DNA from: Desulfobulbaceae bacterium
GTDB lineage: Bacteria; Desulfobacterota; Desulfobulbia; Desulfobulbales; SURF-16
DNA length: 47,063 bases
Direction of reading: 5' to 3'
Assembly (NCBI GenBank): GCA_002868945.1
Contig: PKTX01000041.1
Span: 18,344 to 65,406 of the forward strand
Shown: one piece after another, positions 1 through 40,769 of the stretch
Layout of the letters: every line of letters begins with the position of its first letter
How positions within the stretch are numbered: the stretch's first letter is position 1
Translations under genes and position numbers: made by a program
The notes under the pieces: generated by a model
Database searches by the model: none
Told to the model about the DNA's origin: nothing
Seen by the model: the letters and a program-made list of their open reading frames with translations, nothing else

Positions 1-338
1 CCCGGAGTGTCGCAGGCTCCCTTACCTCTTTCAGGGCGCGCTTATTTTTCTCGCAGTCCTTGATCTCGAACGAAATGACCTATTTCTGGACAGACACTAT
101 CAACTGATGCGTCGTCAAAATTCGGCTTGAGCTAAGGGAGCGGAGCGAGACTCCGAAATGCTCCTGGACCCTATATAAACTGCACCCCAAGGGTACGCGG
201 AGTGTCGCAGGCTCCCTTACCTCCTCCGGGCGCGCATTTTTTCGCCTCATTTTTCCCAGCCTCAGCTACGCTCGCTACGTTTTTCAAGGGATGGTAAGGG
301 AGATGGGGCTCTGCAGCGGGCAATATGCCGGCCGGATG
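1..338. repeat. Gene-free repeat patch: type B end joined to type A element
   Basis: No gene is visible here. Bases 3-103 match the right half of the type B element at 24392-24558: both share the 20 bases ending in CTTGATCTCGAAC and end in GGACAGACAC. From base 104 the sequence switches to the type A element (compare the reverse complement of 17209-17453): CTGATGCGTCGTCAAAATT, GAGACTCCGAAATGCTCC, TGCACCCCAAGGGTAC, then CCTCAGCTACGCTCGCTACG up to about base 290. The join falls inside the type A motif CTATC, so a type B copy seems to have landed in, or recombined with, a type A copy. The patch lies just downstream of the minus-strand stress-protein gene. Confidence 0.7.
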
Positions 339-3460: not shown

Positions 3461-3586
3461 AGCAGCCCGTTGAAAAACTACTATGCTCGCAGGGCTCTCT
3501 TTGTTCGCTATCTGCTGATGCGTCGTCAAAATTCGCCTCATTTTTTCTCGTCTCAGCTGCGCTCGCTACGTTTTTCAAGGGGCTGA
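3461..3586. repeat. Type A palindromic repeat, short form
   Basis: About 125 bases bounded by inverted ends: CAGCCCGTTGAAAAAC at the left and GTTTTTCAAGGGGCTG at the right, one mismatch. It contains CTGATGCGTCGTCAAAATTC and the tail CTCAGCTGCGCTCGCTACG seen in the longer copies (1-290 and the reverse complement of 17209-17453), but lacks their middle of roughly 120 bases. It lies between the divergent dapL and radical SAM genes; the rest of 3226-3613 holds only the dapL promoter and no gene. Confidence 0.8.
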
Positions 3587-3613
3587 TAGACCCTTGCTCT
3601 TCCTGGAAATTAT

Positions 3614-14406: not shown

Positions 14407-14594
14407 GGCCATCTTGAATACTTGCTATTTCGGAGTCTCGCAGGCTCGCTTACCTGCCCGATTTTTTCGGCGCTACGAAAAAAAATCATCGCATATGCTC
14501 TCGATATGCTGCGATTTTTATTTTCTATGCTTCTCAAACTCGAACAGGTAAGCGAGCCTGCGAGACTCCGAAATATCTAATTATTCAAGATACC
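14407..14594. repeat. Type C palindromic element inside the mla cluster
   Basis: A 188-base inverted repeat. Left end GGCCATCTTGAATACTTGC; right end, read in reverse, GGTATCTTGAATAATTAGA. The arms also include a perfect 25-base pair at 14431-14455 and 14546-14570, beginning CGGAGTCTCGCAGGCTCGC. The whole could fold into a very long hairpin in RNA. It fills most of the 395-base mlaF-mlaD gap (14259-14653), which contains no gene. Copies occur at 31020-31120, 40472-40769 (interrupted) and, decayed, 5167-5322. Confidence 0.85.
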
Positions 14595-16754: not shown

Positions 16755-17210
16755 ATGGGGTGTAATCTTGTCAGTGATGCGGCTCTTTCCCGCAGCTTCC
16801 CCTATCTGCTGCCCGAGGAGTGCAAAGTCCTCTGTTCCTTTCTGGAGTATAAAAAATGCACCAAGGATGAGGTCTTTATCCAGCAGGGTGATCCTGGTGA
16901 TTTCATGGCCTTTCTGTTGACAGGTAAGCTGGCCGTGAAAAAGGAGACCCGTTTCCCCGGCAAGTTTGTGCTCGTTGCCATCCTGGAGGGCGGCTCCCTG
17001 GTGGGCGAGGTCTCGGTGGTTGAGGAAAACCCGCGTACCGCGACCGTGGTGGCCATGGAAGAGAGCGAGCTGCTCATCCTGTCCCATGAAAGGGCCAAAA
17101 AGCTTACTGCCGACAATCCGCAGCTGGCCATTAAGCTGCTTAAAAAAATTATCCGGGTGCTGGGGGCCCGCCTGCAAAGTTCCAGCACCAGGTTGGCCCA
17201 GCTCCTCTAG
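16755..17210 (+). CDS. Stand-alone cyclic-nucleotide-binding domain protein
   Basis: A 151-residue protein with one cNMP-binding (Crp/PKA-R type) beta-barrel: the glycine-turn motifs EVFIQQGDPGDFMAFLLTGKLAV (in two parts, about 36-57), LEGGSLVGEVSVVEENPRTATV (about 76-97) for the phosphate-binding cassette, and a C-terminal helix (LAIKLLKKIIRVLGARL). There is no DNA-binding helix-turn-helix, so it is not a Crp-type regulator. In the cassette the usual FGE is LVGE and the Arg of PRTAT is kept, so ligand binding is possible. It begins one base after the mlaC stop, so it belongs to the mla transcript and may link lipid transport to a nucleotide signal. Its TAG stop overlaps the first bases of a type A repeat, so the natural C-terminus may have been trimmed. 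Confidence 0.82.
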   Translation: MGCNLVSDAALSRSFPYLLPEECKVLCSFLEYKKCTKDEVFIQQGDPGDFMAFLLTGKLAVKKETRFPGKFVLVAILEGGSLVGEVSVVEENPRTATVVAMEESELLILSHERAKKLTADNPQLAIKLLKKIIRVLGARLQSSSTRLAQLL

Positions 17211-17453
17211 CAGCCCGTTGCAACAGGGAGCGAGGGAAACTGAGGCTAGGAAAAATGAGGCGAAAAAATGCACGCCCGCAGGAGGTAAGGGAACCTGCGA
17301 CACTCCGAGTACCCTTGGGGTGCAGTTTCCATGGGGTTTAGGAGCATTTCGGAGTCTCGCTCCGCTCGCTTCCTGAGTCCAATTTTGACGACGCATCAGC
17401 CGATAGCGAACCAAGAGAGACCTGCGAGCATAGTAGTTTTTCAACGGGCTGCT
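17209..17453. repeat. Type A palindromic repeat, long form
   Basis: A 245-base element with perfect 11-base inverted ends, AGCAGCCCGTT and AACGGGCTGCT. Read in reverse it matches the short copy at 3461-3586 and the truncated copy at 104-290, and includes both a forward and an inverted version of the CGGAGT(C/G)TCGC module (around 17280-17306 and 17345-17373). Its first two bases form part of the TAG stop codon of the preceding gene. Confidence 0.85.
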
Positions 17454-17490
17454 CGGGGCGCGGAGTGTTGCCCTTTGGGCAGGCGCTCAT

Positions 17491-24391: not shown

Positions 24392-24558
24392 TGTCAGTCC
24401 CTAAATGGTCTTTTTTTGTTCGATCTCTGTGTCTTACTCAAAAAATAATGCTCGAAGGTAAGCGAAACGAAGTGGAGACTCCGATATTGCTATATTCCTC
24501 CGCTTATTTTTTTCGCACTCCTTGATCTCGAACAAAAATCCTCATTTATGGACAGACA
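24392..24558. repeat. Type B palindromic repeat between fabG and acpP
   Basis: About 167 bases with imperfect inverted ends. Left: TGTCAGTCCCTAAATGGTC then a T-run and GTTCGATC. Right, read in reverse: TGTCTGTCCATAAATGAGG then a T-run and GTTCGAGATC. The interior has AGGTAAGCGA and GGAGACTCCG, a degenerate copy of the module shared by types A and C. It begins on the base after the fabG stop codon. Confidence 0.8.
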
Positions 24559-24582
24559 CCTTGGAAAAAACAAATCTGGTTA

Positions 24583-31019: not shown

Positions 31020-31120
31020 GGCCATCTTGAATAATTGCTATTTCGGAGTCTCGCAGGCTCGCTTACCTGCTCGATGTTTTCGTTGCGACGAAAATAAAAT
31101 ATCTCATTATTCAAGATACC
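31020..31120. repeat. Type C palindromic element, short form
   Basis: A 101-base copy: left end GGCCATCTTGAATAATTGC, right end TTATTCAAGATACC. The CGGAGTCTCGCAGGCTCGC module is present once (31044-31068), so the right-hand module seen at 14546-14570 is missing here. It lies 63 bases after ribE. Confidence 0.82.
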
Positions 31121-31129
31121 CATAAGAAC

Positions 31130-40471: not shown

Positions 40472-40769
40472 GGCCATCTTGAATACGTGCCATTTTGCCT
40501 GATTTCTTCGTCGCTAGGAGCCTGTCGGACTTAGAGAATCGTAGCGAAAATTCGAAAAATCAAGGCCAGATTTACATGGATTTGAGGCGAATAGCAGAGC
40601 TATTTAACGAAAAGCCATGGGAATATGGGCCGATTTTTCGAATTTGCAGTAGATTTATGTCTAAGCCCGACAGGCTCCTAGAAAAATAAAATGCTCATAT
40701 CTGCTCGATATGCCGGCCTTTTTGTTTTCTGTGCTTCTCCAGCGAAAATATCTCAGTATGGAAGGTGCC
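40472..40769. repeat. Type C element interrupted by a MITE
   Basis: GGCCATCTTGAATACGTGC begins two bases after the PHP stop codon. The element runs to about 40515, is broken by the type E MITE, and resumes at about 40681 with AAAATGCTCATATCTGCTCG, ending in a diverged right end near 40769 (AAAATATCTCAGTAT...GGTGCC). Without the insertion it would be about 134 bases, between the two sizes seen elsewhere. The gap 40471-40848 contains no gene. Confidence 0.78.
40515..40680. mobile_element. Type E MITE, 162 bases, TA target duplication
   Basis: Ends are inverted: GGAGCCTGTCGGACTTA at the left (from 40517) and TAAGCCCGACAGGCTCC at the right (to 40678), one mismatch in 17. TA lies on both sides (40515-40516 and 40679-40680); the uninterrupted type C copy at 14407 has a single TA at the matching place (GGCGCTACGAAAAA). 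The inverted arms continue inward with ATTCGAAAAATC and GATTTTTCGAAT. Size, ends and TA duplication suit a non-autonomous relative of IS630/Tc1-mariner elements. It encodes no transposase. Confidence 0.85.

Follow-up and report, generated by a model that had tools for sequence, protein, structure and literature searches.

The short module that recurs in the palindromic repeats of the window (the whole stretch of 47,063 nucleotides that was analysed) is very probably an independent, dispersed insertion element, and the best overall explanation, which we consider likely, is a very small mobile element with a putative hairpin that would be moved by a single-strand HUH/Y1 enzyme. The strength of these claims differs, being strong for insertion, moderate for the structure and weak for the enzyme. 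The nearest kind of repeat is the one called small dispersed repeats (SDR) in cyanobacteria, to which the cassette, a very small mobile element of the sulfur-cycling Desulfobulbales, may be likened by analogy. It would have been inserted many times, predominantly into intergenic repeats such as MITEs, and the MITEs would then have spread it further. The original prediction had proposed modular or recombined elements; in outline the elements are indeed modular, while the module itself would be an inserted element nested in the MITEs.

The cassette, its hosts and its distribution

The window belongs to contig C57 of a genome of 3.71 Mb in 83 contigs (hereafter the own genome). What the repeats have in common is a discrete cassette of the form CGGAGT-(5 or 11-15 nt)-CTTACC, which on the purine strand shows fixed ends (GGTAAG...ACTCCG) and a variable interior. 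In a spacing survey covering 1.55 Mb (259 loci of the own and other genomes, many of them picked for carrying the cassette), CGGAGT and CTTACC were separated by 5 (21 places), 11 (43), 12 (185), 13 (31) or 15 bases (25), with few others, and the reversed control gave at most two places per length; the unit is therefore 17, 23, 24, 25 or 27 bp long. A longer element with the same ends and a large interior was rejected, interiors of 16-60 being found only as single or nested cases, with the exception of a related pair of spacings, 22 (six places) and 28 (eight places), which corresponds to an unrelated GGAGTTTATNCCCTG repeat.

The repetition of the module, as originally predicted, proved to be real: the window holds 13 matches at up to three mismatches against 5.65 expected from shuffling, and the 14-base start CGGAGTSTCGCAGG, with at most one mismatch, gave 220 matches in the own genome vs. 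a single match in the reversed control. Of the strict form, CGGAGTCTCG-N2-8-CTCGCTTACC, the own genome has 148 copies. No full cassette was found at up to three edits in ten shuffled windows, and chance matching was rejected on the reversed-control, spacing and shuffled-window counts. Rfam gave no match in the window.

Nine full cassettes, 24-27 bp long, are distributed in the window across three MITE families. The sequence CGGAGTCTCGCAGG is exact at 14431, 14557 (minus strand) and 31044, and the one-mismatch form CGGAGTGTCGCAGG occurs at 3, 198 and 17294 (minus strand). The unit length of 25 given previously is to be corrected to 24 bp, the copies at 3, 198 and 17284 are a GTG/CTCCC variant that lacks the exact start given for the module, and the list of copies, although confirmed by the nine full cassettes, had overlooked the one at 131-155.

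The host elements are MITE-like, i.e., palindromic with terminal inverted repeats, and their ends define the families F1 (GGCCATCTTGAATAATTGC...), F2 (AGCAGCCCGTTGAAAAAC...) and F3 (GTGTCTGTCCAGAAATAGG...), in agreement with the expectation that the module is common to elements with different outer ends. The F1 element at 14407-14594 (GGCCATCTTGAATA...TATTCAAGATACC; 100% self match and many own-genome copies) lies between an ABC ATPase gene and downstream genes of the Mla operon and carries two cassettes, each lying 24 bp inward from one end of the element and both of the 24-bp CAGG form (left site, 14431-14454, plus strand; right site, 14547-14570, minus strand). A short F1 element at 31020-31121, between a lumazine-binding (riboflavin synthase-type) gene and a DHBP synthase/GTP cyclohydrolase II gene, has a cassette of the same form at the left site only (31044-31067, plus strand; empty counterpart L067 232-291, 93%). 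The left site, filled in these two copies, is empty in the F1 left end at 40472-40516 (plus strand), where ...GCCATTT is directly followed by TGCCTGATTTCTTCG, with the junction at about 40494/40495. A palindromic element at 40517-40680, with ends AGGAGCCTGTCGG...CCGACAGGCTCCT, is nested inside this last copy.

In F2, a short element at 3461-3588 is devoid of both the inner segment and the cassettes, and a long element at 17209-17456 holds the inner segment and two cassettes, one of the GTG/CTCCC form (17284-17307, minus strand) and one of the CTCCG form with one base lost (17350-17373, plus strand). Two more F2 cassettes are a 25-bp CTCCG form with a GCTAAG end (131-155, minus strand) and a 24-bp GTG/CTCCC form (198-221, plus strand; empty counterpart L018 1517-1596, 91%). 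Another 24-bp GTG/CTCCC copy (3-26, plus strand) sits in what is left of an F3 element ending at about 98; within window positions 1-295 this F3 end adjoins the inner part of F2, so that F3 seems to have been inserted into F2. The ninth cassette, the 27-bp form CGGAGTCTCCACTTCGTTTCGCTTACC (24457-24483, minus strand; empty counterpart L054, 87%), lies in an F3-type host at 24392-24559, whose right end GTGTCTGTCCATAAATG is on the minus strand and whose left end was set by eye. In the own genome the three families also share a longer stretch around GCACCCCAAGGGYAC and TCYTKCRGGGCGCGC (e.g., window positions 182-235 and 17270-17330), which constitutes a second, larger module and occurs both with and without the GTG cassette. 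At the loci L129, L140 and L109 the cassette sits in elements that are of the CCGGCTTTCGCCGGAATGACG type or akin to it.

Within the order as a whole, 118 of 257 genomes, belonging to 40 of 69 genera, had the strict form, with up to 150 copies per genome (G058); the reversed control had none among the matches listed. The carriers named among the matches listed include Desulfobulbaceae, Desulforhopalus, Desulfocapsa, Desulfogranum, Desulfosediminicola flagellatus and a Desulfurivibrionaceae MAG, which makes Desulfobulbales the most likely identity of the order; the genomes with the cassette comprise a complete one of Desulfosediminicola. A phylum-wide draw of 395 genomes gave six matching genomes, four of them within the order, and the two outside it (among 379 genomes by our count) include G324, with 29 copies. 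This single cassette-rich genome outside the order has an F3-like host MITE in two of three loci (L267, L273, L277), which suggests transfer, and its copies are unevenly divided between the strands (22 vs. 7). Viral contigs gave two matches, one in a chance-looking context. Among the papers listed by literature searches on the cassette core strings and on Desulfobulbaceae repeats, none concerned the cassette.

Borders, empty sites and mode of insertion

The borders were analysed on 148 strict copies with 60-bp flanks, sampled from the own and other genomes and hence a different set from the 148 own-genome copies. Mapping gathered copies, as had been proposed, revealed sharp borders in 53 unrelated context clusters, with conservation falling to background 1-2 bases beyond the cassette. 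Per cluster, the bases just outside were T before the cassette in 39/53 and T after it in 50/53, then G in 36/53, and the only flank positions exceeding 0.15 bit were -1 T (0.94), +1 T (1.63) and +2 G (0.68). The copies are rarely found in long reading frames, as stop-free frames of at least 600 bp hold 15 of 101 own-genome copies and 13 of 116 from other genomes vs. 1190 of 1484 random positions.

When the cassette was excised, the flanks joined and a precise cassette-free counterpart sought, such a counterpart was obtained for 161 of 243 distinct copies, vs. 2-17 of 243 for ten control cuts shifted by 12-70 bases. At the level of contexts, 25 of the 53 clusters had a precise cassette-free counterpart, and a looser search gave 149/206, some of these being tandem units that matched one another. 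With sharp borders, 53 contexts and these counterparts, neither chance nor the simple decay of one element, either of which was to have overturned the original prediction, was borne out.

Five host sites, whose occupancy was read independently of the cassette sequence, were all-or-none, 74 copies being empty and 94 filled, in a reading that inserts longer than about 140 bp would escape. Empty and filled copies numbered 31/23 at the F1 left site, 9/30 at the F1 right site, 18/4 at the F3 right site, 7/10 at the F3 left site and 9/27 at an inner site, counts that do not represent genome frequencies since many of the loci had been fetched for the cassette or for F1. The inserts at these sites measured 24-26 bp, except one of 15 bp and one head-to-tail dimer of 48 bp. 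The junctions show no target duplication, TATTT-TGC in the empty state corresponding to TATTT-cassette-TGC in the filled one, and a few empty/filled pairs differ at the junction-adjacent base (L125 vs. L177; L088 vs. L120). The target is T^T(G) with fixed orientation, which on the purine strand places the cassette between C-A and A (CA^A). Orientation was unbiased with respect to GC skew (66/120 and 80/157).

Head-to-tail arrays of two to three units occur in G058, G062, G044, G038 and G045 and at the loci L144, L143 and L178. Those at L178 (3253-3360) and L144 have mixed or repeated interiors, and at L144 the later units start with GGGAG instead of CGGAG. No polymorphism consisting of the cassette alone was found at a unique orthologous locus; in the one locus that was followed (L092/G059), the whole intergenic stretch was replaced, not the cassette alone. 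The pair L102 and L133 (71% over 456 bp) was rejected as an orthologous polymorphism and is likely a repeat, not an orthologue.

Putative interior structure and possible routes of movement

On the purine strand the cassette is laid out as GGTAAG-CGAG-Y-CGAG-ACTCCG, where the two CGAG blocks are able to pair as C-G, G.A, A.G and G-C, closing on Y. GNA loops, CUUG loops and tandem sheared G.A pairs are stable motifs. Covariation was evaluated on unique interiors with ends within one mismatch, apparent chance matches being kept, and compared with 2000 shuffles of the partners; the rows are related sequences rather than independent events, and the counts that follow therefore overstate the number of the latter. 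In the 24-bp class the outer pair was complementary in 50/55 interiors vs. a shuffled mean of 33.4 (reached by 0/2000), with C-G and G-C both common and the GTG form representing a double change at this pair; the inner closing pair reached 50/55 (mean 46.8; 20/2000) and the loop-closing pair 45/55 (mean 36.7; 1/2000). The 27-bp class gave 18/20 for the outer (0/2000) and 16/20 for the inner pair (27/2000), mostly as G-C or A-T. In the 25- and 23-bp classes a single pair responded, i.e., the inner one at 25 bp (24/32; 5/2000), with no excess at the outer (21/32), and the outer one at 23 bp (13/17; 7/2000), with no excess at the inner (8/17). Positions between the pairs were mostly G.A and A.G and, by copy number, the 23-bp interiors mostly have a GNA loop and the 17-bp ones are mostly CGNAG. 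Energy folding of the purine strand found no stable hairpin in most variants, z-scores being mostly around zero or positive; the best value, -1.4, concerned one DNA variant only and involved pairs other than those of the proposed hairpin. Judged from sequence covariation, the interior appears, with moderate strength, to vary in the manner of a small hairpin formed by the two CGAG blocks (CGAG...CGAG) and containing tandem G.A.

A short hairpin containing tandem G.A pairs would be the expected fold of the purine strand, and a single-strand HUH/Y1 enzyme resembling a REP transposase may recognise the 5' GTAAG tag together with this hairpin and join it after CA. Such a transfer could yield the absence of target duplication, the fixed orientation at a target of 2-3 bases, the tag beside a hairpin-like core and the arrays. 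PMC8266576 describes a REP transposase that cuts at CT and CA beside its REP and another that cuts at CT, with involvement of a GTAG tag; on its purine strand the cassette has GTAAG as the tag and CA^A as the target. Y1 genes were found in 227 of 257 genomes, with eight in the own genome, and the cassette was carried by 111/227 genomes with Y1 vs. 7/30 without (Fisher p 0.01), an association that is weak and confounded by completeness and genome size. Three genomes with at least ten copies had no Y1 match, Y1-rich genomes can be free of the cassette, and at the eight Y1 loci of the own genome no cassette was present within up to about 1.5 kb on each side, apart from one chance-like fuzzy match. 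Y1 as the necessary enzyme was not upheld, in view of the genomes with at least ten copies and no Y1 and of the cassette-free Y1 loci of the own genome, and movement of the cassette by the HUH/Y1 route is put forward only tentatively. A search for a recurrent neighbour gene among 707 open frames at 130 loci gave one widespread cluster (14 loci), by eye a signalling protein, and a reverse transcriptase-like frame at three; neither resembled a mobiliser. More speculatively, the cassette may represent a self-contained class of its own among single-stranded transposons, pared down to the hairpin by which it is recognised and in its shortest form only 17 bp long. Such an element would insert after CA, be recognised via a core of tandem sheared G.A pairs with a GNA-type loop closing it, and have spread through a whole order of bacteria, for the most part as a parasite of MITEs, with the help of an enzyme so far not known to move DNA this short.

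Movement via an RNA copy, in which a short structured RNA would be copied or reverse-spliced into DNA, is unlikely; this route has reportedly been proposed for the cyanobacterial small dispersed repeats. The interior covariation fits RNA as well as single-stranded DNA, and two of the window hosts lie between genes of apparent operons. The reverse transcriptase domain RVT_1, however, did not track the cassette (65/132 vs. 53/125 genomes, p 0.32) and was absent from 12 of the 31 genomes with at least ten copies, including G012 (113 copies) and G005 (96% complete, 31 copies), and with no such association we lean to a DNA route.

That recombination, gene conversion or template switching between repeats spread the cassette inside MITEs, with no insertion of its own, is improbable. 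By eye many contexts resemble intergenic repeats, CAGG and CTTCG/CTCCG interiors alternate at the F1 sites, and the larger segments common to F1, F2 and F3 indicate that exchange between families happens; nevertheless, unrelated contexts share only the cassette and 1-2 target bases, which leaves no homology for exchange, and the empty junctions are exact. The notion of a common site for protein binding or RNA processing, which selection would maintain in several MITE families, would agree with the conservation of the ends across the order, but it is highly improbable and no longer favoured, since it gives no account of all-or-none presence at the same site of the same MITE, of head-to-tail dimers and arrays, or of insertion into unrelated sequences, and only 118 of the 257 genomes carry the cassette. 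Finally, filled and empty copies of each MITE do coexist, but their derivation from one ancestral element that bore the cassette is scarcely credible, as one unit of 23-27 bp would have to be deleted exactly in each of 25 unrelated context clusters.

Relation to known small repeats and significance

The SDR of Nostoc and its relatives, the subject of the work of Elhai and colleagues in Genome Research (2008), are reportedly dispersed sequences of 21-27 nt, often inside minitransposons, with a predicted structure backed by compensatory changes, and are said to be confined to one lineage and to have been judged mobile. Likened to this description, not to SDR sequences, the cassette agrees in size and habit: it measures 17-27 bp with 148 strict own-genome copies, against about 21-27 nt and many dispersed copies, and it is found inserted in other elements with empty counterparts (161/243 vs. 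2-17). The argument for a structure runs along similar lines, with covariation above that of shuffles in the 24- and 27-bp classes but no stable fold by energy. The cassette differs in occurring in Desulfobulbales instead of cyanobacteria and in having, in addition, a form of 17 bp, arrays of head-to-tail units, a variable interior between fixed ends and the T^T(G) target. PMC3116915 mentions cyanobacterial SDR and references Elhai et al. 2008.

Similarly to REP/REPIN sequences mobilised with RAYT (TnpAREP), the cassette is short, intergenic, present in up to more than 100 copies and suggestive of a single-strand logic, with a tag beside a hairpin-like core (GTAAG vs. the GTAG of REP); a CA cut is recorded for one TnpAREP (PMC8266576). 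Unlike REP, its end is GGTAAG and not the GTAG/CGTC tag given in PMC3733652, its copies do not flank a cognate RAYT (0/8 own Y1 loci) and it lacks a stable imperfect palindrome, folding about as well as shuffles in most variants around a core mismatched by tandem G.A. Unlike MITEs, it has no terminal inverted repeat (CGGAGT/CTTACC), makes no target duplication and is far shorter.

The cassette would be among the smallest mobile elements seen in bacteria. Its hundreds of copies and many filled/empty pairs, together with discrete length classes and sharp ends, offer a dense body of natural data on elements close to the smallest size that mobile DNA can have. Mosaic repeats can arise through the nested insertion of a smaller element, and how repeats of 20-odd bp move becomes directly testable in cultured Desulfobulbales.
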